From NCBI GenBank assembly GCA_947372865.1, contig CANBVJ010000012.1:1-64000 (forward strand): a stretch of 64,000 nt of DNA, in the 5' to 3' direction. The notes beneath the pieces are model-generated. The model did no database searches and had not been told where the DNA came from. It worked only from the letters and a program-made list of their open reading frames with translations. The number at the start of each line of letters is the position of its first letter. Positions within the stretch are counted from its first letter, which is position 1. The DNA is from Comamonadaceae bacterium. Lineage in GTDB: Bacteria > Pseudomonadota > Gammaproteobacteria > Burkholderiales > Burkholderiaceae_C. The position numbers and the translations under genes were made by a program. Shown here piece by piece: positions 26,983 to 62,830 of this stretch.

Positions 26983-29280
26983 CTAAAAGCGTGCGGTGTA
27001 GCGCATTCCCACAACAGTCTGAGCTGGCGCGTTGGCGTCGTGGTTGGGGTCAAGGAGTAACTGGGCGATAGCCCCCAGCGCGGCCAGTGGACCAAAGGGT
27101 CGCATGTAGCTGAGCTCAAGGCGTCTTTCGATACCACTGGGCGCCAAGTCCAGGCTGTGTTGGGTGTATATCAGGTGGCCGTCGTTGGCATCTTGTTCCG
27201 TAGCCGTGGTTACCCGCATTTGCCCGTTCGTCGTGCGGGCGGGCATGGCCACACTTAAGCCGATTTGGTCGCCCGTGCGCCAGACGTCAGTCTGGCGCAG
27301 ACCCAGCGACCATGCCAGGGACGTCGACGGGTCCGCCCCGTCAATCAGGGACCCCCCTGTATTTTGGTAAGCATCGGTAAAGCCCCAGCTCACCATGGCC
27401 GATAGCGCGGTGCGTGCCGACCACTGGTGGCTCGATGCCAGCGTCACGAAGCGTGTAGACGGGTTTGCATTCAACGCCAAAGCGCCAGCCCCCTGCGCGC
27501 CCAACACCGATTGTTGTTCTTGTAGCTGACCCAGCGACAACACCCAGACCGTGTCATTGGATTGCTGTTGCAGCTCCAGCAGCGCCATGGACTTCGCTTG
27601 CACCGCTTCCAGCGGCGTCACCAAAGCGGCGGTGCCATCGGTAGCGCTTGCTGCTTGCCACAACCAACCGGCACGCATACTCCATTGCGGCGAAAGCGGG
27701 TATCCAAACCCGGTGTGCACCGCTTGGGGCATCAGGTTGAGGTAAGGCACGCTGAAGAGTCGCTCCCTTCCTGACAAACGAAGCGGTGCCAGGCCACTGG
27801 ATTCCAGGCCAAAAAACTCAGACGCGGTTCCCTCGGTTCCCACGCCCCAAGATCGACCGGCGTTGTCAGTCCAGCGTGCGCGCAGGCGGCTCCAGCCGGG
27901 CGGCGTACCCCTATCGGCGTTGGCCTCCATAGATGGCTCGCTGTTGGCCAGATCGAAAGAAAAAAGGCCATTGCCCGACTGAACCCGCACCGGCGCATTG
28001 GCCGGAATTGCGGAGGTGGTGGCCGCCGCTAAAGCGACCGGGGTGCCTATTTGAACTTTGAATCCACGATTAAAGCTGTCCGTCGCCAGGCTGGTGAGTC
28101 CGGACAGGGCGGACGGCGTACCCGATTTGGGACTGGCAAACTGGGTGCCAGCCAAACTTAGCGTCTGCCCGCTCGGCGCGCTCAGGCTTAGCGTACCCAG
28201 GGGTTGCAGCGACGCGCTTACATTGATCAAACCCCAGCCGTACACCTTGTCCACAATGGTACGTGCCGCGCATGTGCTAGCGCTCACTCGGTCACTGCAA
28301 AGGTGTGTGGCGGATTGAAAAATAATTTTTGCCAGATTGGGTGCCGTCAAAAAGTTCCAATTGCTCTTGATCAGCGCCGCTTCCCCCGCCACCATTGGTG
28401 TGGCCATTGAGGTGCCGCTCATGTATTGGTACGCGCTGGTAGTACCAGGAACGGAGTAACTCGACGCAATGTCCACCCCCGGCGCAAACACCGTCCACTG
28501 GGCCAGTGAAGTGTCGAAATTGCTGAAGGATGCGCGTGTGTTGTTGGCATCGAGCGCGCCTACCGCAATGAGCTGTCCCTTGGCCCAGGATTGCTTGGCA
28601 AACTCTGCCGGCCAAGAGGCTTTGCTGCGGCCATCATTGCCCATTGCAATCGTGACCAAAGTACCCTTGGCTACCGCATTGCGCAGGTTGGACTCGGCGA
28701 ACGCGCTGGGGCCTCCCAGGCTAAGGGACAATATTGGCGCCTTCACGGTATTGACCACCCAATCAATGCCGCGCCCGATGGTGGCGCCATCTGCGCCGCC
28801 CGTGGCAAACACCTTGGCCATTGCCAAGCTGGCCCCGGGGGCCAGGCCCTCCAAGGGCGAACCGTTTTGCAACTCGCCCGCCAAAATGCCAGAGACATGG
28901 GTGCCATGGCCAAGTTGGTCGGTCACCGTGCTGCCGCCGCTGATGGCGTTGTAGCTGCTGACCACCTTGCCCAGTAGCTCAGGGTGGTCCACTTGCACGC
29001 CTGAGTCCACAACGCCAACGGTCACGCCTGCGCCGTTGCCAATGCCGAGTTGGTTTGCGAAGGGCTTTTTAATCTGGTTGAGCCAGGGCTGGTACTGACG
29101 CGCCGTCAACTCTGCTGCGCTTGGGCTGGCGGTCTCCAGCGTACTGGCGCTTTGAAGGGGCGCAGGCCTGGTGGCCAGTAGTTCGCCCATTGTGGGCTCG
29201 TTGTTCTCCAGCCCCTGGGCTGCAAGCTGTGCAGAACCCAGTAGTGTGCAAATGGCCAGCGAGATGGGTAGGAGCTTCAT
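26983..29280 (-). CDS. S8 (subtilisin-like) serine protease with C-terminal probable outer-membrane barrel (autotransporter-like)
   Basis: Signal peptide; triad VGVVDSGVQVDHPEL, GHGTHVSGILAGE, SGTSMATPMVAGEAAL; C-terminus alternating, aromatic-rich and ending in F (MRYTARF). Confidence 0.85.
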   Translation of the reverse strand: MKLLPISLAICTLLGSAQLAAQGLENNEPTMGELLATRPAPLQSASTLETASPSAAELTARQYQPWLNQIKKPFANQLGIGNGAGVTVGVVDSGVQVDHPELLGKVVSSYNAISGGSTVTDQLGHGTHVSGILAGELQNGSPLEGLAPGASLAMAKVFATGGADGATIGRGIDWVVNTVKAPILSLSLGGPSAFAESNLRNAVAKGTLVTIAMGNDGRSKASWPAEFAKQSWAKGQLIAVGALDANNTRASFSNFDTSLAQWTVFAPGVDIASSYSVPGTTSAYQYMSGTSMATPMVAGEAALIKSNWNFLTAPNLAKIIFQSATHLCSDRVSASTCAARTIVDKVYGWGLINVSASLQPLGTLSLSAPSGQTLSLAGTQFASPKSGTPSALSGLTSLATDSFNRGFKVQIGTPVALAAATTSAIPANAPVRVQSGNGLFSFDLANSEPSMEANADRGTPPGWSRLRARWTDNAGRSWGVGTEGTASEFFGLESSGLAPLRLSGRERLFSVPYLNLMPQAVHTGFGYPLSPQWSMRAGWLWQAASATDGTAALVTPLEAVQAKSMALLELQQQSNDTVWVLSLGQLQEQQSVLGAQGAGALALNANPSTRFVTLASSHQWSARTALSAMVSWGFTDAYQNTGGSLIDGADPSTSLAWSLGLRQTDVWRTGDQIGLSVAMPARTTNGQMRVTTATEQDANDGHLIYTQHSLDLAPSGIERRLELSYMRPFGPLAALGAIAQLLLDPNHDANAPAQTVVGMRYTARF

Positions 29281-29391
29281 GGTTCAAGAATTATGGGGGA
29301 TTCAAGTCGCAAATATCGAAAAAAATCAGAAAATTTGAAGAATTCGGTTGAGAGCGCGGCGAAGCGACTGCTCGCGCGCTAATATGAAACG

Positions 29392-30819
29392 ATGTCAGAC
29401 AATGCACACAGCCCGACCACCGCGAGCTTTATCTCCTACCACGCCGGCCTGGGGTCCAGGGTCGCCGTGGAGTTGGATCGTGGCGGGGTCAGTTATGCCC
29501 AACTCGACAGCGATATCGCTTTAGCCTGCCGCTACCTGGGGCAGCAAACGCTGCGCTACAAGGACCTGCTGGTAATCGGCCTAAGTGATCCTTATGCCCA
29601 CTTGGTCTTTGTTTTGGCTGCCGAGCTGCTCGGGCTGATGTCGTGTTCGATACAAATGAGCGAAGAGGTACTGCCGCTCGATGTGATGGCCAGGGCTCAA
29701 TTGGTGCTTACGCAACACAGCGTGCCGCCTGATGCGGGCGTGCACCATCAGCTACCACCGGACTGGCGCGCTTTGGCCAAGGACTATGCGTCTGTGCGTC
29801 TCGTAGCATTGCAAGATGCCGACCCGGTGCGCCTGGTGCGCTCGTCCGGTACGACCGGTACGCCCAAAAAGATCGTTATCCGCCGCGCCCAGCAGGCCCG
29901 GTGGCTGGCTTACCTGGCGTTTTCGGCCGGTTACGGCCCGCAGACGCGGTTTTACGTGGCAGCGGCTTTTCCGGTGAACACTTTTTACATGCGGGCGGTG
30001 CTGTGCCTGCGCATGGGGGGCTGTTTGTTGATGGGTGGCTTGTCACTGCTCAGCCGTGCCACGCACACTTGGATGTTGCCCACGACGCTGGAGCAGGTGA
30101 TGGACGAACTGCCGGCCAGCTTTGTCAAACCTGAGCGATTGGAGATCAGCACTGCAGGCGCGGCGCTGGCGAACGCCACACGACTGCGGGTATGTGGCGC
30201 CTTGGCCAGCAGTATCGTCAACACTTACGGCAGCAACGAGGTGGGCCCCGTGTGCACCATGACCGATGACGGACGCGGCGTGGTTGTGCCTGGCACGGAT
30301 GTACAGGTGGTCGACGACCAAGACCAAGTGCTGCCGCCGGGGACGCCTGGACAACTGCGCGCGCGCAACGCCATCATGGCCGAGGGCTACCTCGACCACC
30401 CTGATGCGACTGCCGAGCGCTTCAAGCACGGCTGGTTTTACCCCGGGGATGAAGCGCTGTTGCTGGCGCCGGGAGAGTTGCGACTGCTTGGGCGCAGGGA
30501 TGACATGCTCAATTTCGCCGGTTTCAAGCGCAGGCCGGAAGAGGTCGAGGCATTGCTTAAAACCGTGCCCGGCGTGCGCGATGCCGCTGCGCTGACGCAG
30601 CACAACCGAGATGGCGTGGTCAGCCTGTACCTGGGTTTGGTCTTGCACCCCGGCGTGACCCCCGACGCGGTGCTTCCGTCCTTGCGCTCGGTGCTCAAAC
30701 TGCCTGTCAAGGAGCTGGTGGTACGCCAGTTCAACGCGCTGCCTCGCACCAGCACCGGAAAACTGCGCCGCAACGCCCTGCTGCCTTTTTTTGCTGAAAC
30801 CCCAAAAAGCGAGGGCTGA
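29392..30819 (+). CDS. AMP-binding (ANL superfamily) acyl/aryl-adenylate synthetase
   Basis: VRSSGTTGTPKKIVI, NTYGSNEVGPVC, FYPGDEALL, RTSTGKLRRN. Confidence 0.85.
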   Translation: MSDNAHSPTTASFISYHAGLGSRVAVELDRGGVSYAQLDSDIALACRYLGQQTLRYKDLLVIGLSDPYAHLVFVLAAELLGLMSCSIQMSEEVLPLDVMARAQLVLTQHSVPPDAGVHHQLPPDWRALAKDYASVRLVALQDADPVRLVRSSGTTGTPKKIVIRRAQQARWLAYLAFSAGYGPQTRFYVAAAFPVNTFYMRAVLCLRMGGCLLMGGLSLLSRATHTWMLPTTLEQVMDELPASFVKPERLEISTAGAALANATRLRVCGALASSIVNTYGSNEVGPVCTMTDDGRGVVVPGTDVQVVDDQDQVLPPGTPGQLRARNAIMAEGYLDHPDATAERFKHGWFYPGDEALLLAPGELRLLGRRDDMLNFAGFKRRPEEVEALLKTVPGVRDAAALTQHNRDGVVSLYLGLVLHPGVTPDAVLPSLRSVLKLPVKELVVRQFNALPRTSTGKLRRNALLPFFAETPKSEG

Positions 30820-30820
30820 G

Positions 30821-31324
30821 ATGTCTTTGAGCCAATTGAACGCCGGTTACGACGTCCGCGAAGACCGCATTGTTTTGCGCGTCAACACCAAGACTGGCGA
30901 AGAGTACCGCCTTTTTTTGACCCGCAGAATCACCCTGCAGTTGGTGGCGTTCTCCCAGCAACAGCTGGTAGACCTGTTGGCCCGCGACCATGGCCCGCAA
31001 GCGGCGCGGGCGATTGCCGATTTTCGGCAAGACGCCGCGCAGCAGCAAACCGATTTCAACGTGGCGTTTAAAGTAGCCCAGCACTATCCCTTGGGCCTGG
31101 ACCCCAAGCTCGTTGTGTCATTCCAAGGCCTATTGGCGCCTCGCTTGCAACTCAAACTCGGTCTCAAAGAGGGAACGGTGCTGACGCTGCCCTTGGACGA
31201 AGCAACGCTGCGCTCCCTGTGCTTGCTGCTTGAGCGTACCGTGGGCTTGACGCAGTGGCAGAGCGCGCCAGAAGTGCCTGCCCCGCCCACTCCTTCGAGC
31301 GCGCCACGCGCGCCCATGCACTAA
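30821..31324 (+). CDS. Conserved hypothetical protein of accessory locus
   Basis: 167-aa ORF starting 1 nt after the AMP-ligase stop; EDRIVLRVNTKTGEEYRLFLTRRITLQLVAF motif; no assignment. Confidence 0.7.
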   Translation: MSLSQLNAGYDVREDRIVLRVNTKTGEEYRLFLTRRITLQLVAFSQQQLVDLLARDHGPQAARAIADFRQDAAQQQTDFNVAFKVAQHYPLGLDPKLVVSFQGLLAPRLQLKLGLKEGTVLTLPLDEATLRSLCLLLERTVGLTQWQSAPEVPAPPTPSSAPRAPMH

Positions 31325-31347
31325 ACACGGCGTGCATACCGTTCGTC

Positions 31348-32118
31348 TTAGGGTGCAGCCTCTGGCGCCGACGTGCTGCTGGCCAACGCTTTGGGCAGCA
31401 GCAGTGGAACTACCGCCATCACGCTGTCGCGGTAAATTTCAAAAGGACGTTTGTCCGCGCGCGGGTTGATGGATACGGCCTCAGGCACTTCTGCCTGTCC
31501 GGCCAACAGTTCGGCCAGCAAGCTGGACTTGATGGCGTAGTTCACATTTTGCGGCACGTCCATTTTCTGGTCTTTGAGCGGCACCGCCGCCAGCTTGGAA
31601 AGCACGACCCCCACCACTGCGCCATCGGCCGCCAGCAAGGGTCCGCCGGAATTTCCCCGCTGTATTTCTGCGCTGAACTGAAAGTGCCTGGAACTACCGC
31701 GCAGCCCGGCGCTGCTATTGATAATGCCGGCGGTGAACTTGGGGCTGAGGCCCTGTATGTCGATTTGCGGGTAGCCAATCGCATACACCTCCAGGCCCAC
31801 CGGGATGTTGTCGGTGCGTCCCAAACGCAGAAAGGGTACGGGCGACTTCGCTACCCGCAGCAAAGCCAGGTCGTTCGCCGTATCGGTCTTGATTACCTGG
31901 GCTGCCACCAGGCGCCCACCGTACAGGACCATGGCTTTTTCATGCCCCTGCACCACGTGCGCGGCGGTCACCAGCAAACCGTCGCTGCTGACAAAAAAGC
32001 CGCTTCCAGACCCTTCAAACTTGGTTTGGCCCCACAGTAAAGCAGGGCACAAGCACATCAGCCCCAGCCCCAGCGCCAGTTGCCAGCGTTGGCCCCAGCG
32101 CGGCGCTTGCGCAGTCAT
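31348..32118 (-). CDS. Trypsin-like (S1C-type) serine protease without PDZ domain
   Basis: SGSGFFVSSDGLLVTAAHVVQG, NDLALLRV, QRGNSGGPLLAADGAVVGVV; start overlaps the upstream stop (ATGA). Confidence 0.85.
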   Translation of the reverse strand: MTAQAPRWGQRWQLALGLGLMCLCPALLWGQTKFEGSGSGFFVSSDGLLVTAAHVVQGHEKAMVLYGGRLVAAQVIKTDTANDLALLRVAKSPVPFLRLGRTDNIPVGLEVYAIGYPQIDIQGLSPKFTAGIINSSAGLRGSSRHFQFSAEIQRGNSGGPLLAADGAVVGVVLSKLAAVPLKDQKMDVPQNVNYAIKSSLLAELLAGQAEVPEAVSINPRADKRPFEIYRDSVMAVVPLLLPKALASSTSAPEAAP

Positions 32119-34070
32119 GCTCCAACGGCGCTGCCCTGGCCGAGTTGCTTCAAGTCGTCGGCGAGTTCGTCCAGCACGGTGTCCCAATCGTGCGGCCTAT
32201 GCTGACGGTACAGGCGCATGGAAGGGTACCAGGGCGTGTCCTTGCGCTCGAGCATCCAGCGCCAGTCGGGCGCATAGGGTGTCAGCATCCACACCGGGCA
32301 GCCCAAGGCGCCCGCCAGGTGCGCTACCGAGGTGTCGACCGACACCACCAGGTCGAGGTTGGAAATCAGACCCGCAGTGTCGGCAAAATTGTCCAGTTCT
32401 TGGCTGAAATCGCGCACTTGGGTCTGCGAACTCAGGTAGACCTGGTCCTCCGGGCGCACTTCTTTCATCAAGGACACGGCGGTAAACGGCGTGCTGCCCA
32501 GCGCCTCCATTAAATCCTTCAGGGCCAGCGAGCGGTTGCGGTCGTTGGCGTGCTTGGGGTTGCCCGACCACACCAGGCCTATGCGCAGGCCGGAGGCGTC
32601 TTTCAGGAGCTCGCCGAAATACGCCTTGCGCTCAGGCCTTGCGCTCAGGTAGGCCTGTGGGCCTGGAATGCTGGCCATGGTCGTGCCTAACAAGGTGGGA
32701 ATCGAGAGCAGAGGGCAATACAGGTCAAATTCCGGAAACTTGCGGGTGCCGCGCTCTATCCACACCACACCGGGTGCGTAGTCCTTGGCAATTTCCAGCA
32801 GTGGCTCGGGGAACTCCGCCAACACCTGGGCACCCTGGGCTTGCAGCATAGGCAAATAGCGCATGAACTGGATGTGGTCCCCCATGCCTTGCTCGGAATG
32901 GACAAACAGTCTCTTGCCTTGGATCGACTCGCCCTTTTTCCACTGCGGCTTGCCGAGTTTGCGTGGGCGCAACTCTTTGACCCCGCCACGCCAACGCCAC
33001 TCGTAGGCTTCAAACCCCTCTTCAATCCGCCCCAGCAGCAGCAAGGACAGCGACCGGTTCCACTGCGCGTCCGGGAAACTGTCTTTTTGCGAGATCGCCT
33101 TCTCCAAGCCGGCCAGAGATTCTTCCACGCGGTTGAGTCGCCGCAAGGTGATAGCGTAGTTGTTCCAGGCCTCGGGGTAGATGTCCTGTCGGTCCAAGGC
33201 CAGACGGTAATTCGCCAAGGCCTCGTCATAACGGTTGGCCTTGCTATAAAAGTTGCCCAGGTTGTTGTAAACAGCCGCCTGATCGGGAAACATTTCCTTG
33301 AGCTTGGTGAACTGCGCTTCTGCCGTGTCGTACTGGTCCGTCGCCAAATAGGCGTTGCCCAGGTTGGTCATCACGTCCAGCCGGTCCGGCGCGTCGCGCA
33401 GCACCTCGGCGTAGTGGCTAATGGCCTCTTTGTGGCGTCCGAGCTTCATCAGCACATGGCCTAGTGACATGCGGGCGGCCCATATCGTGGGGTCCAGGTC
33501 CAAAGCGCGGTACAAAACGGGCAAGGCGCGTTTGTCTAGCTTGAGCTGTGCAAAGAGCGTACCAAGCGTGTGCAAGTAGGGAGCAAAGTCAGGCCGCAAC
33601 GCCAGCGCACGCCCTATGCTTTTGACGGCCGCGTCGAGTTGCTTCGCCGCACCCAGTGCCTGACCTTTGTAATAGTGCAAGTCTGGGTCTTTGTCCAAGG
33701 CAGGCTCGGCCTTGGCAAACTCTTCTACTGCTGCCTCGGGTTTTGATTGGCGCAACAGTGCCAGGCCCAGCAGCTTGTGGGCCGGCGCCTGGTCTGGCTG
33801 CTGAGTGATGCATTTACGCAACAGCTCCTCGGCCAGTGAGTTCTCGCCGGACTGCAGCTTTACCAAGCCGTACTGCAGCAGCAGCTTGGGGTGGTCGGGG
33901 TGGCTTTTGAGCAGTCGCTGAAACAGCGCATTGGCCGAATCAAAGTCCTTGGCTTGGGCAAACTTGGCGCCGCGGACCAAAGCCTCCTCCAGCGTCTCCC
34001 CCACGTGTGTGGTGGTGGGCGCTTTCACAGCGGGCTTCGGTTTGTTGGGTTTTACTTGAATTTTGGTCAT
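32115..34070 (-). CDS. TPR-repeat protein fused to a GT9-like glycosyltransferase domain
   Basis: Multiple TPR units followed by HSEQGMGDHIQFMRYLPMLQ...RIGLVWSGNPKHANDRNRSL...VDTSVAHLAGALGCPVWMLTP. Confidence 0.85.
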   Translation of the reverse strand: MTKIQVKPNKPKPAVKAPTTTHVGETLEEALVRGAKFAQAKDFDSANALFQRLLKSHPDHPKLLLQYGLVKLQSGENSLAEELLRKCITQQPDQAPAHKLLGLALLRQSKPEAAVEEFAKAEPALDKDPDLHYYKGQALGAAKQLDAAVKSIGRALALRPDFAPYLHTLGTLFAQLKLDKRALPVLYRALDLDPTIWAARMSLGHVLMKLGRHKEAISHYAEVLRDAPDRLDVMTNLGNAYLATDQYDTAEAQFTKLKEMFPDQAAVYNNLGNFYSKANRYDEALANYRLALDRQDIYPEAWNNYAITLRRLNRVEESLAGLEKAISQKDSFPDAQWNRSLSLLLLGRIEEGFEAYEWRWRGGVKELRPRKLGKPQWKKGESIQGKRLFVHSEQGMGDHIQFMRYLPMLQAQGAQVLAEFPEPLLEIAKDYAPGVVWIERGTRKFPEFDLYCPLLSIPTLLGTTMASIPGPQAYLSARPERKAYFGELLKDASGLRIGLVWSGNPKHANDRNRSLALKDLMEALGSTPFTAVSLMKEVRPEDQVYLSSQTQVRDFSQELDNFADTAGLISNLDLVVSVDTSVAHLAGALGCPVWMLTPYAPDWRWMLERKDTPWYPSMRLYRQHRPHDWDTVLDELADDLKQLGQGSAVGA

Positions 34071-34134
34071 GGGTAATCGGTATTCACCAAAATTGTAAAT
34101 GCGACATGACTAACATGATTTCATCGTTTCAACT

Positions 34135-34163: not shown

Positions 34164-34186
34164 TAATTTAACCCAGGAATCACCAC

Positions 34187-37100
34187 ATGAGCAACCTCGC
34201 CCCAGGATCGAACGAATCCATGCAAGACCAAGACGCAGCCCTGACCAAGAAGCAAAAGAAGAATCTCTCAGGGGCTAAAGGCTCGGCAGCTGCCCAGACG
34301 GGCGTGGTTGCGCCGGAGTCGGCGCTTGCAGTCAAAAAGCTACGCCGTAAATTGGTGGCTGACGATAGTGTTCTCGGGGCTGCAGGCGATGACCTGGGCA
34401 GCAGTGGTGCCGTGGTTAGTGATGTAGACGCGAGTGCACTCAACGATGGTGGAACCTGGCAGTTGGCGCAAGCGGAAACTGGTGCGGTGCTGCCCGGTGT
34501 TGGCGGAGCGGCTGGTGGCGCTGGTGGTGCCGCAGCAGCAGGTTCTGGTGGTGCAGCTGCTGCGGCCGCAGGCTCTGGTGGTGCGGCGGCAGCGGGTGCT
34601 GGTGCCGCCGGCGCAGGCGCTGCAATGGGCGCAGGTGCTGCTGCAGCGGGCGCAGGCCTTGGCCTCGGTGGTGTTGCCGCGGCAGCGGCGGGTGGATTGG
34701 CGCTGGCAGGCGGTGGCGGCGGTTCGTCGGCACCGGCCCCCACGCCTCCTGGTGCGCCCTCCATCAGCACCGTAGCTGCTAACGACGTCGTCAACGGCGC
34801 AGAAAACACTGCGGGCGTGACTATTAGCGGCCAAGCTGCAGCAAACTCCACCGTGCGCGTATACGATGGTGTGACGCTAATTGGTACAACCACTGCTGAC
34901 GGCAGTGGCAACTACAGCCTAACTGGCGTGCACTTTGCAACCTCGACAGGCGCCAGCCATAGCCTGACTGCTACTGCCACAAACAGCGTAGGCACTGGCG
35001 CAGCCAGTACTGCGCACACCGTGCAGGTTGACACAGAGTTGCAGGTGCCCACGGCTGCCATTGCGCACACCGTGCTTAATGACACAGGTAGCTCTTCAAG
35101 CGACAGTATCACCGCCAACACCGCGCCGGTCATCAATGGCACTGCAGAAGCTGGCGCGCGCGTGACCGTTGTGGTTGGTGGGGTAAACGGGCAAACCCTG
35201 ACGACTACAGCAGACGGATCGGGTAACTTCAGTGTTACGCCTGTGTCATTGGCCAATGGCACGTATACCGTGGCGATCACTACGAGTGATGCGGCTGGAA
35301 ACACCAACACTGCCTTTGGAACGCCTTTCACCATCGGTTCAGCGCTGAGTGCGCCCACCATCAGTACCGTGGCTGGTAACGACATCGTTAATGGCGCAGA
35401 AAACACCGCAGGCGTGACCATCAGCGGCGTGGCTGATGCAAACTCCACCGTGAAGGTGTACGACGGTGCAACGCTCATCGGCACAACCACTGCGGACAGC
35501 CATGGCAGTTACAGCATCACAGGTGTTCAATTTGCAACATCGGCAGGCGCCAGCCATAGCCTGACTGCGACTTCCACCAACAACGTAGGTACCAGCGCCG
35601 CCAGTGCCGCGCACACCGTGCAGGTTGACACCGTGGCGCCAGGCGCGCCCGCTGCGGCCATTGCGCACACCGCGCTCAACGACACGGGCAGCTCTTCGAG
35701 CGACAGCATCACCTCCAACGCCACGCCAGTCATCACCGGTACTGCCGATGCTGGTACGCAAGTCACAGTGGTGGTGGGTGGGCAAACCCTCACGACTACT
35801 GCAGACGGCTCGGGCAACTTCAGTGTGACCCCCGCAGCATTAGCCAACGGCACCTACACCGTGGCGATCACGACGACCGACGCGGCTGGCAACAGCAGCT
35901 CTGGCACTGGAACCCCTTTCACCATTGGTACAGCGCTGAATGTCCCCACAATCAGCACCGTAGCCGGCAACGACGTCGTTAGCGCCGCAGAAAACACCGC
36001 AGGCGTGACCATCAGCGGCGTGGCGGCTGCAAACTCTACCGTGCGTGTATACGACGGTGCAACGCTCATCGGCACAACCACTGCAGACGGCAGCGGTAAC
36101 TACAGCATCACAGGCGTGCAATTTGCACTCTCGGCAGGCGCCAGCCATAGCCTGACTGCGACTTCCACCAACAACGTAGGCACCAGCGCCGCCAGTGCCG
36201 CGCACACCGTGCAGGTTGACACCGTGGCGCCAGGCGCGCCCGCTGCGGCCATCGCGCACACCGCGCCCAATGACACCGGTAATTCGTCAAGCGACAGCAT
36301 CACAGCCAACACCACGCCAGTCATCACTGGCACTGCCGATGCTGGAACGCAAGTTACTGTTGTGGTTGGTGGTCAAACCCTGACGACCACGACGGACGGC
36401 ACGGGCCACTTCAGCGTGACACCTGCGACACTGGCCATTGGTACATACACCGTGGCGATCACGACGACAGACGCGGCCGGCAACAGCAGCTCTGGCACTG
36501 GAACCCCTTTCACCATCGGTGCGGCGCTGAGCGCTCCCACCATTGGCACCGTAGCTGGTAACGACATCGTTAATGGCGCGGAAAACACCGCAGGCGTGAC
36601 CATCAGCGGCATGGCGGCTGCAAACTCTACCGTGCGTGTATACGACGGTGCAACGCTCATCGGCACAACCACTGCAGACGGCAGCGGTAACTACAGCATC
36701 ACGGACGTGCACTTTGCACTCTCGGCAGGCGCCAGCCATAGCCTGACAGCTACTGCCACCAACAACGTAGGCACCAGCGCTGCCAGCGCAGCGCACGCGG
36801 TGCAAGTTGACACCTTAGCACCAGTTGTGCCCGCTGCGGCCATCGCGCATACCGCGCTTAATGACACGGGTGACTCGTCAAGCGACGACCTCACTTCCAA
36901 CACGGCTCCCGTCATCACCGGAACAGCCGAAATCGGTGCGCAAGTCACCGTTGTGGTTGGTGGACAAACCCTCACGACCACTGCAAACGGCTCGGGTCAC
37001 TTCAGCGTGACGCCTGCACCGTTGGCCAGCGGCACCTATACCGTGGCGATCACTACGACTGATGCGGCAGGCAACAGCAGCTCTGCCGCTGGGGCACCGT

Positions 37101-50605: not shown

Positions 50606-50630
50606 AGCACGCCCACCGAGGAGTATTTCC

Positions 50631-51797: not shown

Positions 51798-51801
51798 GGC
51801 G

Positions 51802-53338: not shown

Positions 53339-53456
53339 GGGATGTGTCCTTTAAATGGTTGTTACTAAAATCACAGATTGAAACTGCAAAAAATTTGACA
53401 TGCATATTATAAAGTGCTGCAGTGTAAAATTGTTGTCGTCGAATTTAGTATTGATT

Positions 53457-54428: not shown

Positions 54429-54441
54429 TGGAGTTATTTGA

Positions 54442-55920
54442 ATGGATTTTGTAGAATGTAGTGCGAACACCAGCGAGTACGTAGCCGTTCATGCGGCCAT
54501 GGAGCCTGCGCGGCCGGCGGTCGTGGTCGGTGGTCAGGTGGTCAGCTACGGCCTGGTGTTTGAGCAGATTAAAAACTTCACGCTCGCCATGCACGCACTC
54601 GGCATCAAGGCCGGCGACCGGTGTATCGTCAATGTCGCGCATCCTTATGTGCATTGGTTGATTTTGCTGGCGCTGGAAAACTTGGCGGCGGTGTCATGTT
54701 CGGCGCGCCCGGACGAAGAGGCTTCGCTAAGGGCATTGATGGCCAGTATGGATAAGCTCATTTGCCAGGAAACCAGAGTGCCTGATGGGCCGGTGGAGCT
54801 GGTTCATGTGCCATTGGAGTGGATTCAGACCCAGCTCAATGCGCGCACCGACGACGTGCGTTACCGCGAAGTGCTGCGCTTTCTGGGGCCCCAGGCTGGC
54901 CAGCGTATCAAGCGATCCTCGGGTACGACCGGTGGGATGAAGACCATGCTTTCGTCGAACCAGGGCGAAGAGGCATTCATCAAGGCGTATGCCGACGTTA
55001 TGGGTTTCACCCGGGATACGCGGTATTTGGTGGCCAACGGTTTTGTAATCACCTCGGTACACCTGTGCGCCACACTGTGCCTGCGCTTGGGCGCAATGGT
55101 GATTTTTGACCAGGGAGAAAATCGCCTGCAACTGATTGTCCGCCACCGGGTGACGCATGTGCGCTTTTTTCCGCAGCAGTTGCTCGATCTACTCAAGGTA
55201 ATGGAGGCGGGCTCTCTGCCCAAGCCGAAAGACTTGACGGTGATTTTGGGTGCCGCACCTGTTTCGCGCATTCTTTGGGACCGTGTTTTGGCTTTGATCG
55301 CCAGCAACATTGTGTACACCTACAACACCAACGAGTGTGGCTCTATTTGCGTCATGGGGCCCGATGGGGTAGGGGTGGTGCGTGCCGGTGTCCAGGTGAG
55401 CATTGTGGGCCCCGATGACCAGGTGCTTGCGCCGGGTCAAACCGGTCGCATCCGTGTCAAAGTGCCGCACGCGGTGCGGGCCTACCTCGACAGCCCCTTG
55501 GCCACCCAGAATAACTTCAAGGAGGGGTGGTTTTATACCGGTGACGCCGGCCATTTCATCGGCTCCAGGCATCTTAAGCTGGTCGGCCGCATCGATGATG
55601 TGCTTGTTTTTGCCGGCTTTAAGCGTGGTGCCGACGAGTACGAGGCAGAAGTCTGCACGGTTGACGGGGTTCAGGAGGCCTGTGCACTGTCAGCACCAGA
55701 TGCGCTAGGAATAGACCGCTTGGTGGTTTGTGCCGTGGCGGCACCTGCAGCAAAGAGACCGGTATTGGTACAGGCGTTGAGGAAACTCTTTCCCCCCTAT
55801 ATTTCCGAAGGTGCACGGGTGTTTTTTGTCGACAGTTTGCCGCGCACGGACAACGGCAAGCTCCAGCGCGCCGCGATGAAATCCCGCTTGCCGCAGCTCA
55901 CCGGGGGCCACGCTCTCTAA
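54442..55920 (+). CDS. AMP-binding (ANL superfamily) adenylate-forming enzyme
   Basis: KRSSGTTGGMKTML, TYNTNECGSIC, WFYTGDAGHF, RTDNGKLQRA. Confidence 0.85.
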   Translation: MDFVECSANTSEYVAVHAAMEPARPAVVVGGQVVSYGLVFEQIKNFTLAMHALGIKAGDRCIVNVAHPYVHWLILLALENLAAVSCSARPDEEASLRALMASMDKLICQETRVPDGPVELVHVPLEWIQTQLNARTDDVRYREVLRFLGPQAGQRIKRSSGTTGGMKTMLSSNQGEEAFIKAYADVMGFTRDTRYLVANGFVITSVHLCATLCLRLGAMVIFDQGENRLQLIVRHRVTHVRFFPQQLLDLLKVMEAGSLPKPKDLTVILGAAPVSRILWDRVLALIASNIVYTYNTNECGSICVMGPDGVGVVRAGVQVSIVGPDDQVLAPGQTGRIRVKVPHAVRAYLDSPLATQNNFKEGWFYTGDAGHFIGSRHLKLVGRIDDVLVFAGFKRGADEYEAEVCTVDGVQEACALSAPDALGIDRLVVCAVAAPAAKRPVLVQALRKLFPPYISEGARVFFVDSLPRTDNGKLQRAAMKSRLPQLTGGHAL

Positions 55921-57388
55921 GCGTACGCAGGTCCTGCAACCGCGCGCGCAATGCCGCGCGCTGGACTTTGCCTGTGGGCGTGCGGGGAATGGCGTCTACC
56001 TGCGCCCATTCCACCAGATGCCCAAAAGCTGCCATGCTGGTCGCCGTTTCTTTTTGCAGGCGCTCCAGACGACCGGTGGTAGTAAAGACGACCACAATTA
56101 CCACGACCTGCGCACCCTCCGGGCCTGACCCCATCAGCACTGCGGCATCCTGAACATAGTCCAGGCTACGCAGCTTGGACTCGGCTGCGGCAGGGTTGAC
56201 TTTGATGCCTCCGATATTGATCAGGTCGTCTTTGCGACCCGTGAGCTCCAGCCACCCATTGGGCAGCAATCGGCCCAGGTCGCCCGGCCAGAACCAGCTA
56301 TTGATGAAGTGGGTGGAGGTGGTTTCGGGCTCGCCTTCGTAGCGTGCAGCCATGTGGGGGGTACGCACCTTAATATGACCGACTTCCCCCGGGGCCAGCG
56401 CATGGTCCAGATCATTCACGATACGTACGTCGACCCCGGGCAGTAGCGAAATACCTGGGGTGTCGTTTTCGCAAGGTCCCGCGGACTGTGCACCGATGAA
56501 CCCTACCTCGTTGGTGCCGTACATGTCGACCACAGTATGGGCAAATACGTCCAGGCATTGCGCCACCGTGTCCGCTGGCAATACGCCACCAAAAGCGGTG
56601 AGCATGATTTTTTGTTGAACCGCAGGAGTTTCGTGCTGGGTTCGCGTGATGTTGGCCAAGTCCATGGGTAGCACGGTCGCGTGGCTGACACCAAAATCAT
56701 GCAGCGCCTGCAAAAACGAACGTTCGTCGCGCTTGACCACTGTGCCGCCAGCGCGCAGACAGGCAGTGGCTGCGGCGTATATGCCGCCGACAGAGAAGGG
56801 GTGCTGGATCAGGCAGACGCTGTCGGGTCCGTAGTGGCAAAACCATTGCCAGCGCTCGGTCCAGCCATCCCACATGCGCCTATCCAAGACAATGCGTTTG
56901 GATTCGCCGGTGGTGCCCGAGGTGCGTAGCAGGCGCAGTGCTGTTTTTTGGTAGCGGTCTTGTTCTGGTGGCTGAATGCTCGCGTCACTGTCCTGCGCAC
57001 CCAGGGCCTGCGCATTGACGGCCAGTACTGGTACTGGCAACACCTGGGCCACCTGCGAGAGCAGCGCACCCACCCCAAACTGATGTAGAAAGGCGGTGTT
57101 CACTTCGCTGGGCAGGACCGTCATACTGCAGTGGCCCAGATTTTCCAGCGCCAGCAAGCTGACCCATTGCCACAAAAAGTCCTCTGTAGACACTGCCACG
57201 ATCTGGTCTTTTGCAAGTACTGGCAGGTTGTTGCGCAGGAATGCCGTGCAGAGGGTCAGTCGCGCGTGCAATTGAGTAAAAGTGCAAGAGTTAGCGCCCC
57301 ATTGCAAAGCGGTTTTATCCGGCGTTTTTCGGGCATAGAACAGCAACAAATCGGCCGTCGTTGGAAGGGGGCTGCTAACATCGTTCAT
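55898..57388 (-). CDS. AMP-binding (ANL superfamily) adenylate-forming enzyme
   Basis: LRTSGTTGESKRIVLDRR, DMYGTNEVGFIG, WFWPGDLGRL, RTPTGKVQRA. Confidence 0.85.
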   Translation of the reverse strand: MNDVSSPLPTTADLLLFYARKTPDKTALQWGANSCTFTQLHARLTLCTAFLRNNLPVLAKDQIVAVSTEDFLWQWVSLLALENLGHCSMTVLPSEVNTAFLHQFGVGALLSQVAQVLPVPVLAVNAQALGAQDSDASIQPPEQDRYQKTALRLLRTSGTTGESKRIVLDRRMWDGWTERWQWFCHYGPDSVCLIQHPFSVGGIYAAATACLRAGGTVVKRDERSFLQALHDFGVSHATVLPMDLANITRTQHETPAVQQKIMLTAFGGVLPADTVAQCLDVFAHTVVDMYGTNEVGFIGAQSAGPCENDTPGISLLPGVDVRIVNDLDHALAPGEVGHIKVRTPHMAARYEGEPETTSTHFINSWFWPGDLGRLLPNGWLELTGRKDDLINIGGIKVNPAAAESKLRSLDYVQDAAVLMGSGPEGAQVVVIVVVFTTTGRLERLQKETATSMAAFGHLVEWAQVDAIPRTPTGKVQRAALRARLQDLRTLRERGPR

Positions 57389-57449
57389 AGATTTAGGGAT
57401 TTTGGAGTTTTTATTGAAAGCTGGACTTTATCCGTACAGCACGGCGATG

Positions 57450-59039
57450 GCGCCGCGCCAGGGCTTGTATGACGTAGCCGTGATTTTGCCCACCATCGGA
57501 CGCTGGACTACGCTGCAAGCTATTGAATCGGTGTACGCACAAGTCGATGCAGGCTGTATTCAATTATTGGTGGGGATTGACGCGGTGGAGCACGATTTTT
57601 TGCGCATAGAGCAATTGTTGCAGTCGCCACCACCGCATGTCGATGTGCTTCTTTTCTACCCTGGTTATTCCACATCGGTGCGCCACGGTGGCGTGCATAC
57701 ATCTGGCAGCGGCGGCGCCTTGCGGTCGGTATTGAGTTATCTGGCGCATAGCAAATACCTGTGTTATCTGGATGATGACAACTGGTGGGCGCCACAACAT
57801 TTGAGCACGCTATTGCGCGCGGTGCAGGGAAAAAGCTGGGCCTTTGCGGGCCGCAGCTTTGTGCATCCTGAACAAGACGATTTGCAGTGTCCGGACGATT
57901 GGGAGTCTGTCGGTTTGAACGGCGGAGTTTTCGCGGCGGAGTTTGGCGGTTGGGTGGATCCCAATTGTTTGATTCTTGATAAAACCCTCTGCGCCGAAGC
58001 CTTGGGATTGTGGAGCGACGCTCTGAAGCTCAATGCACAGGGCTGGGGTTTGGCGGCCGATCGCCGGGTTTTCGCATGGCTACGCCAAAAACCGGTCGGT
58101 GCGACCGGCGCGCACACGGTGTATTACCGTATTCGGTCCGACGATCCCAATTTTATAAACCGCATTCACCATCTGCGAAAAATCGAAGCAGCGGAGTTCT
58201 ACCTCCCAAAGCAGCACAGCAAAGCAACAGCTGCCATGGTGATTGTGTGCAAAGGCCGCTTGCAACACCTCAAGCAAAGCCTCCCTTTGGTGGCCGGCAT
58301 GGACGATTTGCAGGTGATTGTGGTGGATGACGATTGTCCCGAGCACTCTGGCGAATGGGTTGCTCAAAACTATCCTGCGGTGCAAGTGGTGCGCCCCTCT
58401 GAGCCAAGGCCGTTTAATTTGGCACGCGCGCGTAATTTAGGTGCGACTGCTGTCACCGCCCCGTGGATCGTTTTCATGGACGCCGATGTGCTGGCCAAGC
58501 CCCCGTTTGCACATTGGTTGGCCCAGCGGCGTGATCCTGGCTTCTTCTACTGCAATAGTCAGGAGGTGCCGGAGCTTCTGGGCACCTTTGTCTGCACTAC
58601 CCAAGCGTTTAAAGCGGTGGGTGGATACGACGAAAATTTTAGAAGCTGGGGTGGCGAAGATGCTGATATCTACCGCCGCCTGGAACAAGCAGGCTACGCC
58701 AAGGTGGCAATTCCTGCCGCCCTATGGGACCCCATATGGCATGACGATGCCTTGCGATTTACTTTTGTTGCTGGACCTCCGTCCAAGATGGTTTCGATTC
58801 TGCAGACGCATTTTTATTCAACCATCAAATACGATTTTCAAGCGCTTGGATTTGATTTTTCCAAGCTGCCGCAATTCGAGTCGGTTTTGCAAAAAATAGA
58901 TGCCTCGGTGTTGGATGCCATCGCTCAAAAAAGAGCGCAGGAATTTGTATTCAATCTGGGGCGGCGAAAAAAACTTTTGATGGCTAACGGTTTTTTCGTA
59001 AGTCGAAAAATAATTTATCAAATCAGCCAAGAGGCCTGA
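57450..59039 (+). CDS. Bifunctional GT2-family glycosyltransferase with two GT-A domains
   Basis: Domain 1 VAVILPTIGRWTTLQAIESVYAQ...YLDDDNWW; domain 2 MVIVCKGRLQHLKQSLPLVAG...NLARARNLGATAVTAPWIVFMDADV...WGGEDADIYRRL. TTG start at 57402 possible. Confidence 0.82.
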   Translation, partial: APRQGLYDVAVILPTIGRWTTLQAIESVYAQVDAGCIQLLVGIDAVEHDFLRIEQLLQSPPPHVDVLLFYPGYSTSVRHGGVHTSGSGGALRSVLSYLAHSKYLCYLDDDNWWAPQHLSTLLRAVQGKSWAFAGRSFVHPEQDDLQCPDDWESVGLNGGVFAAEFGGWVDPNCLILDKTLCAEALGLWSDALKLNAQGWGLAADRRVFAWLRQKPVGATGAHTVYYRIRSDDPNFINRIHHLRKIEAAEFYLPKQHSKATAAMVIVCKGRLQHLKQSLPLVAGMDDLQVIVVDDDCPEHSGEWVAQNYPAVQVVRPSEPRPFNLARARNLGATAVTAPWIVFMDADVLAKPPFAHWLAQRRDPGFFYCNSQEVPELLGTFVCTTQAFKAVGGYDENFRSWGGEDADIYRRLEQAGYAKVAIPAALWDPIWHDDALRFTFVAGPPSKMVSILQTHFYSTIKYDFQALGFDFSKLPQFESVLQKIDASVLDAIAQKRAQEFVFNLGRRKKLLMANGFFVSRKIIYQISQEA

Positions 59040-59077
59040 GTTCCATCCAAGGCAAGGTACATGCGAGCCGGCAAATT

Positions 59078-59923
59078 ATGAATGCAACAACACAAACCCA
59101 AGTTTGGCAGCAGCATGCGTCCCAATGGGATCTTGTAGGCGCTCCACTGCGCCCCTCGCCCATAGACGCTGAGCTCATGCGCGCCGCCATCCTCGGGCGC
59201 CACGGCGAAGACCTGCAAGGCCTTCAAGTCGCTGTATTGGGCGTTACGCCCGAAGTGGTGGGGCTCGCTTGGCCCCTGGCTTCAACCATCCGTGCCTTTG
59301 ACCACAGTGCGGACATGGTGCGCAAGGTCTGGCGGCCGCACCCTACGCTAGCCTCTGAAGTTTGTTTGGCGGACTGGTCCGGGCTGCCCCTGGCCTCCGG
59401 CTCGGTGGATGTCTTTGCGGGTGACAATTCCTTGGGCGCTTTACCCACTTTTGTCACGTGCCAAAATGTGCTGCGCGAACTGCACCGCGTATTAAAGCGC
59501 TCAGGCACCTTGTGCTTGCGCTGCTTTATTGCGCCGGAGGTGCCTGAGTCTTTTGCGAGCATCAGCGAGGATGTGGCCCATGGACGTGTGCTTAGTTTTC
59601 ACGCGCTCAAGTGGCGTTTGGCCATGGCGCTGTGTACGGGCCCGGATCAAAACGTGGTCGTGCACCGTATTTTTCAGTGCTTTGAATCTGTGTTTCCTGA
59701 CCGGCTGGCTTTAGCGCGCATGACCGGCTGGTCCGCGGAAGTGATCAACACAATTGACGTGTACCGCGACAGCGACACCGTGTACACCTTTTTTACCATT
59801 GCGTCATTGAGGCGTTTGGCCATGCCGTGGTTCAGCGTGCAAAGCATTCAGTACCCGGACTATGAGCTCGCGGCTAGGTGCCCGACGGTGACGCTGGTGC
59901 CCCACGCCAGCGTGGCACCGTGA
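59078..59923 (+). CDS. Class I SAM-dependent methyltransferase
   Basis: VAVLGVTPEVVGLAWPLASTIRAFDHSADMV...GSVDVFAGDNSLGALPTFVTCQNVLRELHRVLKRSGTLCLRCF. Confidence 0.75.
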   Translation: MNATTQTQVWQQHASQWDLVGAPLRPSPIDAELMRAAILGRHGEDLQGLQVAVLGVTPEVVGLAWPLASTIRAFDHSADMVRKVWRPHPTLASEVCLADWSGLPLASGSVDVFAGDNSLGALPTFVTCQNVLRELHRVLKRSGTLCLRCFIAPEVPESFASISEDVAHGRVLSFHALKWRLAMALCTGPDQNVVVHRIFQCFESVFPDRLALARMTGWSAEVINTIDVYRDSDTVYTFFTIASLRRLAMPWFSVQSIQYPDYELAARCPTVTLVPHASVAP

Positions 59924-61851
59924 CAGCGCTCTCCCCTGCACGTCACTGTGCCCTGCTCAGTCCCGCCCATTTCCTGCGTGGCTTTGCCTTTGGCTTGCGT
60001 TACCCGGCCTTGGTGGTTGCTGTTGCGTGGGATATGCCTCCTGACACGCGCTGGCTCGATGCGCTGCAGCAGCAGGTGCCAGCTATCCCTGGCCTGGCCC
60101 GTGTCTGGACCGCGGCGGACTGGGAGGCTCTGCGCACTGAACCGCACCAAGACGCGCAGGCCTTGTTACGGGTCTTGCATGTACTCCAGCGGGCCGCCGC
60201 TTTGCCCTTGTTTGAAGAGGGCAAGATCATTTCCATCAGTGGCACGACACACCGCTATGCGGTGCCCATTTTTGCGCGCAGCGCCCAAGCCATGCTGGCC
60301 ACGGTGCGGGCTTTGCTACAGGTGGTGGAGCAGCTCGCCGCTGGTGTGCGCAACCCGCCCCTTGCCGAGCTGGAGTTGGCCCTGAGGGCCCTGGCGGGAA
60401 GCTATGTTTGCGGCTCGAACGTTCCGCCATTTTTGCAGGCCGCTTTGGCCCGTGAACTGCCGTTTTATGAGGTGGCGGGCGATGTCATTCAGTTTGGTCA
60501 GGGACGCCGTGGACGGTGGTTGCAAAGCTCGTTTACCGACACCACACCCCAAATCGCAGCTACGCTGTCGCGTGATAAAAAGCTCTGCGCCCAGGTCTTA
60601 AAGCGCGCAGGCATTCCCGTGCCAGCGCATGAGACCGTGCGATCGGTCGAAGAGTTGGGTCCGGCAGCGCAGCGCTTGGGGTATCCGGTGGTGATTAAGC
60701 CCGCTGACCTGGACGGCGGCGTAGGTGTGGCTGCGGGTCTGGACAGCGCCCAGGAGGTCGCACAGGCTTATGCGCAGGCGCTAAAACATTCCCGCAACAT
60801 TTTGATTGAAAAGCACATACCGGGGCGCGATTACCGGCTCACCGTATTTCACAAGGAGGTGGTTTGGACCATTGAGCGCCAGCCCGCAGGCTTGCACGGC
60901 GACGGCGTTTCCACTGTCGAACAACTGTTGGCCTTGGCTAACCAAGACACACGACGTGGCGACGGAGCGCATGCGTCGCTGAAAAAACTGGTGCTCGATG
61001 GGGAGGCGCAGTCGCTTCTGCGCCGCCAAGCCCTGGGTGGCCAGTCTGTCCCACCCAAGGGAAAGTTTGTTCGCTTGCGGCGCAGTGCCAATATCGCTAG
61101 CGGAGGCTTGCCGATCGCCGTGGTGGCAGATATACACCCCGACAACCTCGCCCTGGCGGTGCGGGCCGCACAAGCGCTCAAATTGGACTTGGCTGGTGTG
61201 GACTTGTTGATTCCGGATATCAAAGTGTCCTGGCTGGCCGGCGGCGCTGCTGTGTGCGAGGTAAACGCCCAACCGCAACTCGGACGAACTACCAGCTTGC
61301 ATTTGTACCCATTAGTGCTGGGCAAACTCGTTCCCGGTAATGGGCGTATTCCCATTGTGTTGGCCTTTGGCGCCGGACAGGCCCAGGCGTTGGTGCAATC
61401 GCTAGAAGCGCAATGGGGCGCCCTGGGGCGCAGCTTGGGCGTGGCCGATGCCGCGGGGGTGCGGCTCGGCGGTGTGCAGATTGGCAAGGCCGGCACATCG
61501 GCCTACGACGCCGGTGCGTTGTTGCTGGCGAACACCCAAGTAGATGCGATAGCTTTGGTCATCGACGACAGAAGTCTGTTGGAAAACGGCTTCCCATTTT
61601 CAGCGTTTGACATACTTTTGGTGACAGATGACCATCGTTGGCGCTCTCCTGCACAGGCAGGCGCGGCGCCCGACTTCATTGCCTGCCAACCGGCGTGCGA
61701 TGGGTTTTTCATAGCGACGGGATTTGATGAAGAAAAAAAGAGATTGCTTGCAAGCTACAGCACGGAACTGTTCGAACATTTTGACGTCGCAGGTCAGGGT
61801 TTGTTGGACCGCTTGTGCAGTATTTACCACAACCATGGTGAGGCAGTTTGA
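59920..61851 (+). CDS. Cyanophycin synthetase-like ATP-grasp protein with truncated/degenerate Mur-ligase-like C-terminal half
   Basis: GQGRRGRWLQSSFTDTTPQIAATLSRDKKLCAQVLKRAGIPVPAHETV..YPVVIKPADLDGGVGV; GTG start overlapping the previous TGA. Confidence 0.75.
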   Translation: MTALSPARHCALLSPAHFLRGFAFGLRYPALVVAVAWDMPPDTRWLDALQQQVPAIPGLARVWTAADWEALRTEPHQDAQALLRVLHVLQRAAALPLFEEGKIISISGTTHRYAVPIFARSAQAMLATVRALLQVVEQLAAGVRNPPLAELELALRALAGSYVCGSNVPPFLQAALARELPFYEVAGDVIQFGQGRRGRWLQSSFTDTTPQIAATLSRDKKLCAQVLKRAGIPVPAHETVRSVEELGPAAQRLGYPVVIKPADLDGGVGVAAGLDSAQEVAQAYAQALKHSRNILIEKHIPGRDYRLTVFHKEVVWTIERQPAGLHGDGVSTVEQLLALANQDTRRGDGAHASLKKLVLDGEAQSLLRRQALGGQSVPPKGKFVRLRRSANIASGGLPIAVVADIHPDNLALAVRAAQALKLDLAGVDLLIPDIKVSWLAGGAAVCEVNAQPQLGRTTSLHLYPLVLGKLVPGNGRIPIVLAFGAGQAQALVQSLEAQWGALGRSLGVADAAGVRLGGVQIGKAGTSAYDAGALLLANTQVDAIALVIDDRSLLENGFPFSAFDILLVTDDHRWRSPAQAGAAPDFIACQPACDGFFIATGFDEEKKRLLASYSTELFEHFDVAGQGLLDRLCSIYHNHGEAV

Positions 61852-61948
61852 AACTGGACTCAGCCTAAAACCTGCGCCGCGCATTTGTCTGAATATTCGC
61901 CACAGGCAAGGCTCAGCGTGCGCGTAGCACGTATTCAAGGAAATTTAA

Positions 61949-62830
61949 GTGAAAAAAATATTCCAAACTGCTGATGAGTTATTTAGGTTGGAGGCAGCGC
62001 TGCTGCGAGATTATTTGCCTACAGATCGAGAAGGGGATCTGATTTATTCGCTCATCAGCTTTGTTCGGTCGCACGCCAGGCTTCCAACAGAAAATAAAAT
62101 ATTTAATGATGTGCTTTTTAAAATAAACACCAGCGATGAAATACTAAATCCACTGCGCGTTTTTGTATCCGATAAAGAACATGGAAAACAATACATAAAA
62201 AGTATTTTGGGTAATGATGTCAATGTTCCTACACTTCGGATCTTAAGAAATAAAGAGGATATCTTGTCGTATCATTTTCCGGAGCGTTGTGTTATCAAGC
62301 CCACGCACGCCTCGGGCGAGGTAATTATTCGCGAAGCAGGTGAGCGGCTGGACTTGGCAAAGCTCCAGTCGTGGCTCGCATTGAGTTATTATAAAAAAAC
62401 ACGTGAGGCAAATTATCGCTACCTTGAGCCAAAAATATTGGTCGAACCTATATTATTCGATGATCCCAATCTCAGTGATATCAAAGTTTTTTGTTTCCAG
62501 GGCAAGGCGAAATTATTATTCGTTGATTTGAATGTGCGAGTCAAGCATCAAAGAAAATTTTACGATGTCCATTGGAATCCATTAAACTTTTCTCTGCGAT
62601 ACCCTAACCCGGCAGCCCTTTCCCTGCTCCGACCTTTAAACCTGGACGCCATGCTGGCTGCGGCCGAGCGGCTAAGTGAGCAGTTTTCCTTCGTAAGAAT
62701 AGATTTTTATTCCAACCAAGAGCGGTTTTATGTGGGTGAAATTACCAACTGTTCTGGGGCGGGACTCGCGAAGTTTGATTCCTACGAAAATGAGTTGCGC
62801 GCTTCTGAGATTATCTTTGGACCCTATTAA
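61949..62830 (+). CDS. TupA-like ATP-grasp amidoligase family protein
   Basis: FPERCVIKPTHASGEVIIREAG...ILVEPILFDDPNLSDIKVFCFQGKAKLLFVDLN..FSFVRIDFYSNQERFYVGEITNCSGAGLAKF. Confidence 0.78.
   Translation: MKKIFQTADELFRLEAALLRDYLPTDREGDLIYSLISFVRSHARLPTENKIFNDVLFKINTSDEILNPLRVFVSDKEHGKQYIKSILGNDVNVPTLRILRNKEDILSYHFPERCVIKPTHASGEVIIREAGERLDLAKLQSWLALSYYKKTREANYRYLEPKILVEPILFDDPNLSDIKVFCFQGKAKLLFVDLNVRVKHQRKFYDVHWNPLNFSLRYPNPAALSLLRPLNLDAMLAAAERLSEQFSFVRIDFYSNQERFYVGEITNCSGAGLAKFDSYENELRASEIIFGPY

Follow-up and report, generated by a model that had tools for sequence, protein, structure and literature searches.

A candidate system for decorating a giant exported protein, carried on a single insertion in a Comamonadaceae genome

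Do the genes for a giant exported protein, glycosyltransferases (GTs), adenylating enzymes and ATP-grasp ligases that crowd into one part of a Comamonadaceae genome belong to one system, and what would such a system make? The genes lie in a 64,000-nt stretch (positions 1–64,000 of contig CANBVJ010000012.1, assembly GCA_947372865.1), hereafter called the window. A sequence-only reading of the window had named three atypical AMP-ligases, five GT-type domains, a methyltransferase, two ATP-grasp ligases, two serine proteases, a Bug-type periplasmic binding protein and a type I secretion system (T1SS) with a giant cargo, and it knew of no named pathway with this set. All of these components exist, between 26,983 and 62,830, and the gene for a further protein, p177 (30821–31324), is an island member that was absent from that list. 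No pathway with this gene set was found in the literature searched (open-licence papers only). We give an even chance to the view that the island is a mobile system for a decorated giant surface protein, combining cytoplasmic glycosylation, acyl or aminoacyl decoration and T1SS export.

A single insertion with a recurrent core

The window is part of one 66.7-kb contig in a 3.0-Mb draft genome (84 contigs, 96% complete). The whole island (26917–62936) is inserted between fadD (25253–26929) and corA (62937–63956). A survey covered 60 genomes of the genus with a completeness of at least 90%, counting that of the window. Both flanking genes were found in the relatives, and in ≈47 of the 59 others, by our own count, they shared a contig and lay a few kb apart at most. 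At four empty sites, which were read base by base, the gap between fadD and corA is a few tens of bp, and in all four the homology to the window ends at 26916 on the left and restarts at 62932–62937 on the right. Because the two genes adjoin in the relatives and the empty sites supply the breakpoints, the block is a single insertion of ≈36 kb, which entered as a unit between these housekeeping genes. The boundaries agree with the coordinates proposed earlier from the sequence. The GC content is 57.2% in the island, 64.6% in the left flank and 57.9% in the right flank, which is short; no integrase was seen among the annotated genes.

The system is carried by four genomes from at least three genera: that of the window and three that we refer to as G225, G497 and G049. 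G225 belongs to the same genus and keeps the gene order, mostly with 70–93% protein identity. G497, a Comamonadaceae draft genome, has all parts on one contig (C18) with 49–82% identity, while in G049, from another genus, the genes show 30–72% identity and are split over many contigs. The flanking genes in G225 and G497 differ from those of the window, so the block resides at other sites in these two genomes.

What recurs in all four genomes is a core, in which p177, the trypsin-like protease and a tetratricopeptide repeat (TPR) glycosyltransferase (TPR-GT) are encoded divergently from a gene run giant-GT4a-TolC-ABC-HlyD-GT4b, and to which the AMP-ligases and the Bug protein also belong. The divergent p177-trypsin-TPR-GT arrangement and the run from the giant gene to GT4b are both kept in G049. 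In four of four genomes the TPR-GT gene stands divergently beside the giant gene, and the T1SS genes have GT4a on one side and GT4b on the other. GT4a is the most specific marker and tracks the giant system: at E ≤ 1e-40 it was matched by none of 101 further genomes of the genus and by none of the other 399 genomes in a sample of the order. For AMP2, a search of 400 family genomes at E ≤ 1e-65 returned one other genome, G049, and weaker matches were seen in G297 and G135.

These results support a real co-inherited system, inserted as one piece and with a core shared across genera. The expectation that all parts would travel with the giant gene holds for the core and only partly for the remainder. 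The double GT2 protein, the methyltransferase and the CphA-like ligase are found in three of the four genomes and the TupA-like ligase in two (the window's and G225), and these four are accessory. In G497, sulfotransferase-like and APS-kinase genes are present and TupA is missing, and G049 combines the giant/T1SS/TPR-GT core with many AMP-ligases and GT2s of the single-domain kind only.

The giant protein, its exporter and the glycosyltransferases

The giant T1SS-type protein (34187–46114, plus strand) is 3,975 aa long and has orthologs with 51–60% and 30–33% identity. An A/G-rich N-terminus (residues 1–190) is followed by Big_13/Big_6 Ig-like repeats (residues ≈190–1080) and a predicted β-solenoid region. 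For residues 1881–2480, AlphaFold2, given no more than three sequences, returned a β-solenoid with a predicted local distance difference test score (pLDDT) of 91.6 and a predicted TM-score of 0.90. Foldseek matches of this segment in the PDB were mostly β-helix proteins (alginate lyases, pertactin, Ag43, PfbA, SRRP), none with E < 0.1. As these matches are not significant, we restrict the claim to the fold class: the segment models as a β-solenoid, with no specific relative. No Pfam family of hemolysin-type calcium-binding nonapeptide repeats (RTX) was among the matches of the giant protein. The protein is acidic, with a predicted isoelectric point of 4.05, and 8 of its 16 lysines fall within residues 1–190, so that the remaining 3,785 residues hold only 8 (0.21%). 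The relatives are similarly lysine-poor, and the scarcity may reflect protease resistance or avoidance of acylation.

The exporter genes lie directly beyond GT4a on the plus strand (47139–51797). They encode a TolC-type outer-membrane channel (47139–48413; PF02321), an LssB-like T1SS ABC exporter (48410–50605; TIGR03375, E 2.6e-204, with 680.5 bits where the cut-off is 693.1) and a HlyD-type membrane-fusion protein (50631–51797; PF13437). The complete T1SS set is encoded together with its cargo and is kept in G225, G497 and G049.

The five GT-type domains are found in TPR-GT, GT4a, GT4b and the double GT2 protein; the Glyco_transf_9 match of TPR-GT is sub-threshold and GT4b is assigned by pattern. 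TPR-GT (32115–34070, minus strand; 87% identity in G225, 72% in G497 and 60% in G049) joins TPRs to a GT9/GT-B-like domain, with a strong TPR_2 match (E 2e-32) and the TPRs of OGT among its PDB matches. GT4a (46123–47142, plus strand) matches PF00534 with 51.6 bits and has orthologs with 89% (G225), 73% (G497) and 60% (G049) identity. For GT4b (51802–52986, plus strand), Pfam and NCBIfam gave no match, and the label GT-B-like comes only from sequence pattern and gene context; it lies beside HlyD in G497 (53%), G049 (43%) and G225. In the double GT2-type protein (57402–59039, plus strand; 75% in G225, 50% in G497) Pfam backs the second half (PF00535/PF02709), and the first half matches stand-alone proteins of 291 and 301 aa in G049.

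In Caulobacter, the TPR domain of FlmG binds flagellins, which the enzyme glycosylates in the cytoplasm (PMC7591256). Since TPR-GT is built like FlmG and is consistently encoded divergently beside the giant gene, and since no Wzx/Wzy/Wzm/Wzt-type flippase, polymerase or exporter and no oligosaccharyltransferase was seen among the annotated island genes, cytoplasmic glycosylation is the simplest reading. With glycosylation in the cytoplasm, the absence of flippase, polymerase and oligosaccharyltransferase genes from the island is in turn what would be expected.

Both serine proteases are encoded on the minus strand. The S8 subtilase-type protease (26983–29280; PF00082, E 1.9e-46) has a C-terminal extension of ≈400 aa, and its ortholog (76% identity) adjoins the start of AMP1 on contig C127 of G225. 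The trypsin-like protease (31348–32118; PF13365, E 1.6e-30; 85% in G225, 61% in G049) has its longest frame open to 32187, with a probable start at 32118 that overlaps the stop of TPR-GT, and G497 has a trypsin-family gene at the equivalent place. The protein encoded beside this protease is the giant, which nearly lacks lysine in residues 191–3975 (window 34757–46114).

The unannotated α/β protein p177 (167 aa, plus strand) is encoded beside the trypsin/TPR-GT genes in G497 and G049 as well. Its AlphaFold2 model has a pLDDT of 90.7 and no significant match in the PDB. A role as glycosylation adaptor was considered, since G225 carries a p177 paralog by TPR/GT41-like and UDP-sugar-dehydrogenase-like genes (contig C94; L146, 1942–3914). 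It was not upheld, as other members of the family are often found next to housekeeping genes of the clpB and moaE/moeA types and the fold has no significant match. Outside the island, the window contains a PMT_2-type mannosyltransferase-like gene (5766–7316) and a type II secretion cluster (12307–20548).

Adenylating enzymes and ATP-grasp ligases

Three acyl/aryl-adenylating ligases are encoded in the island: AMP1 (29392–30819, plus strand; PF00501, E 3.4e-20; orthologs with 72% identity in G225 and 59% in G497), AMP2 (54442–55920, plus strand; PF00501 and PF13193; orthologs in all four genomes) and AMP3 (55898–57388, minus strand; PF00501; 74% in G225, 40% in G049). To call them atypical is fair, since AMP3 scores 142–149 bits against AMP1 and AMP2 and at most 86 bits against the other adenylating enzymes of the genome. 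In a tree with relatives they form three ortholog groups, AMP1 (three genomes), AMP2 (four) and AMP3 (three), each with 100% bootstrap. The ANL motifs A3 (P-loop), A5, A7, A8 and A10 (lysine) are kept in AMP1–3 and in their full-length orthologs, and with these motifs intact the enzymes should be active. The nearest PDB relatives of AMP2 are salicylate-AMP ligase and 4-coumarate:CoA ligase. The Asp that binds the α-amino group in nonribosomal peptide synthetases (FDxS) meets a gap when AMP3 is aligned to LgrA (at FDIS), and the A4 regions of AMP1–3 have no Asp. Because of these relatives and the Asp unseen in the aligned A4 regions, we infer aryl or acyl substrates rather than amino acids.

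The gene for the Bug/TctC periplasmic binding protein (53400–54428, plus strand; PF03401, E 9.6e-53) adjoins AMP2 in all four genomes. The 2.4-Mb genome of G049 contains ≈8 AMP-ligase paralogs, on contigs C10, C27, C79, C122, C157, C160 and C163 (L019–L024, L119).

The methyltransferase and the two ATP-grasp ligases are all encoded on the plus strand between 59078 and 62830. The CphA-like ligase (59878–61851), which has no working MurE-like (M) domain, matches PRK14016 with E 1.6e-94, far below the NCBIfam cut-off. We mapped its active site residue by residue against Trichodesmium CphA1, for which residue roles have been described, including primer binding by E215 (PMC9427784). The ATP lysines K220 and K261 are kept, as are R309, R323, N394 and the metal-binding E/N, while E215 is replaced by T, H267 by G, R458 is absent, and the M-domain P-loop reads LAFGAGQAQA for SVTGTNGKTT. 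Identical losses, together with a CEVNAQP motif, were found in 15 of 15 relatives checked (Pseudomonadota, Chlorobiota), one of which has Lys for R323. With the ATP-grasp residues kept and the primer and Arg-adding sites gone, the enzyme is an active-looking ATP-grasp ligase and not a cyanophycin synthetase; the loss of E215, H267, R458 and the GTNGKT P-loop rules out cyanophycin synthesis.

The class I methyltransferase (59078–59923; PF08241, 25.8 bits) is paired with the CphA-like ligase in G225, G497, Chlorobiaceae and a Solemya symbiont. The TupA-like ligase (61949–62830; PF14305, E 6.4e-42) has an ortholog only in G225, and the GC content of its gene is 42%, compared to 57% for the island.

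CphA-like ligases were also examined in other lineages. An ABC/HlyD pair was present in 6 of 68 CphA-like loci (strict count), against a chance rate for a T1SS neighbor of ≈1% per locus that is our rough estimate and not a measured control. T1SS genes occur within 10 kb of the ligase in six other lineages (L030, L040, L068, L078, L083 and L089). In L030 the T1SS, a methyltransferase and the ligase stand in a row, the T1SS of both L030 and L040 is accompanied by a putative cargo that is large, acidic and poor in lysine, and L068 has GT genes nearby. The CphA-like ligases located by type I exporters look like a general T1SS-associated peptide-ligase class. Two independent clusters repeat part of the logic of the island: L068, with GTs, T1SS and CphA-like ligase, and L072 (6807–12953, Lake Erken proteobacterium), where two GT-like genes, a CphA-like ligase and an AMP2-like ligase follow in a row with no T1SS within 10 kb.

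A decorated giant protein, its alternatives and known systems

If the island decorates its giant protein, the protein would be made unfolded in the cytoplasm, where TPR-GT would bind it via the TPR superhelix and add a first sugar, as FlmG does to flagellin, and GT4a, GT4b and the double GT2 protein would lengthen this sugar. AMP1–3 would each turn a different carboxylic acid, probably an aryl or acyl acid, into an adenylate or CoA ester, and the Bug protein would capture an acid building block. The CphA-like and TupA-like ligases would add amino acids, which for the CphA-like enzyme is suggested because the residues holding the Asp side chain are kept, and the methyltransferase would cap the product. 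The finished glycoprotein would leave through the dedicated TolC-ABC-HlyD exporter and form a β-solenoid coat or an adhesin fiber, with the trypsin-like and S8 proteases processing or releasing it outside the cytoplasm. The proposal builds on the identity of the genes, their insertion as one unit, the conserved core, the intact catalytic motifs and the β-solenoid model. A more far-reaching version, which we put forward only tentatively, is that the product is a new surface polymer, a giant β-solenoid glycoprotein. Its glycan would bear a number of different acyl or aryl groups, each owed to one AMP-ligase, as well as amino acids joined by the ATP-grasp enzymes, and the decoration would be complete in the cytoplasm ahead of type I export. 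The CEVNAQP-type CphA-like ligases would then include a cross-phylum peptide-ligase class for exported polymers.

Several points weigh against such a glycoprotein. Covalent attachment to the giant, the order of the steps, the substrates, the action of the ligases on a single product and the placing of acyl or aminoacyl groups on the glycan are all inferred. The Glyco_transf_9 score of TPR-GT is 21.7 bits, marginally below the cut-off of 22.0, and the island has no recognizable acyltransferase, acyl-carrier protein or nucleotide-sugar pathway. G049 has no close ortholog of the CphA-like ligase, the methyltransferase or TupA, its AMP-ligases are dispersed among housekeeping genes, and members of the AMP-ligase family turn up in three genomes with no giant gene (G135, G297 and G505). 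In clusters from Chlorobiaceae and Solemya symbionts (L033, L034, L036) the methyltransferase/CphA-like pair is accompanied by an O-methyltransferase and an alcohol dehydrogenase (in Solemya by a polyketide synthase too) and not by a T1SS. These clusters are probably a small-molecule pathway and a warning that the module can have other products too.

Two alternatives draw on these points. One is that the GTs, AMP-ligases and ATP-grasp enzymes make a product of their own, a surface glycan or small molecule with acyl or aminoacyl groups that is not covalently linked to the giant; the giant would then be an ordinary co-inherited T1SS adhesin. The small-molecule-like clusters just described and a GT/CphA-like/AMP cluster with no T1SS nearby in G505 would fit this, but no polysaccharide export or polymerization genes were seen in the island, the two GT4-type genes flank the T1SS genes wherever the system occurs, and TPR-GT is of the type of cytoplasmic protein glycosyltransferases; we regard a separate product as unlikely. 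The island might also be mixed, with the T1SS giant and TPR-GT as one system, the AMP-ligases and Bug protein as an independent cassette that takes up aromatic or aliphatic acids and activates them with CoA, and the CphA-like/methyltransferase/TupA genes as a third module. AMP-ligases without a giant in G135 and G297, their scatter in G049, and the odd GC content of TupA and its restriction to two genomes all argue for such a mixture. Yet each of the three AMP-ligases has orthologs in other genomes that carry the giant, an AMP-ligase follows immediately after GT4b in G049, and neither a catabolic oxygenase nor an acyl-CoA dehydrogenase was seen among the island genes, which makes a mixed island rather improbable in our view. 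An assembly chimera or chance clustering, for which a draft of 84 contigs leaves some room, is hardly credible, as the same gene order recurs in G225 with 74–93% identity and the same gene set stands on one contig in G497.

An anti-phage defense island was rejected, as a comparison of 10 proteins with the PADLOC system proteins gave no matches other than generic TPR ones. The sheath sugars of Leptothrix and Sphaerotilus are amide-substituted, for which reason a sheath counterpart was considered; no such locus was present among the CphA-like matches, and the literature offered nothing decisive.

If the giant is indeed decorated as proposed, the island would be a dedicated and horizontally moving machinery that equips an exported protein with acids and amino acids besides sugars. 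It would also suggest a function for two orphan groups of enzymes, this adenylating clade and the CphA-like ligases without M domain from Pseudomonadota, Chlorobiota and Cyanobacteriota. The three relatives, with the same core and differing accessory enzymes, form a comparative test set.

Secreted proteins with a dedicated glycosylation in the cytoplasm are a known kind, as are giant adhesins exported by a T1SS; a system that joins the two and adds three acyl-adenylating enzymes and ATP-grasp ligases had no match in the literature searched. The island shares with LapA/BapA/SiiE-like adhesins a TolC-ABC(LssB-like)-HlyD operon, bacterial Ig-like repeats and an acidic, lysine-poor cargo, but its giant has no RTX match in Pfam, has a central predicted β-solenoid and comes with dedicated glycosyltransferases and ligases. 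The CphA-like enzyme resembles cyanophycin synthetase CphA1 in its ATP-grasp (G) domain, with the ATP, metal and Asp-β-carboxylate residues (R323, N394), and differs in its length (657 aa versus ≈870 aa), in the lost E215, H267, R458 and P-loop, and in a T1SS/GT context in place of nitrogen storage. TupA-like and related ATP-grasp ligases have been proposed to modify surface polymers such as teichuronopeptide (principle in PMC4431377; PMC2824669). The island likewise has ATP-grasp peptide ligases in a surface-polymer context, but unlike the teichuronopeptide-type systems it is without uronic-acid polymer genes. The likeness to the FlmG-type cytoplasmic TPR-glycosyltransferases is one of architecture, with a TPR N-terminus, a GT-B-like C-terminus and a gene located by that of a secreted repetitive protein as the likely client; here the client would be a 3,975-aa T1SS protein, served in addition by three further GT genes and by acyl- and aminoacyl-activating enzymes.

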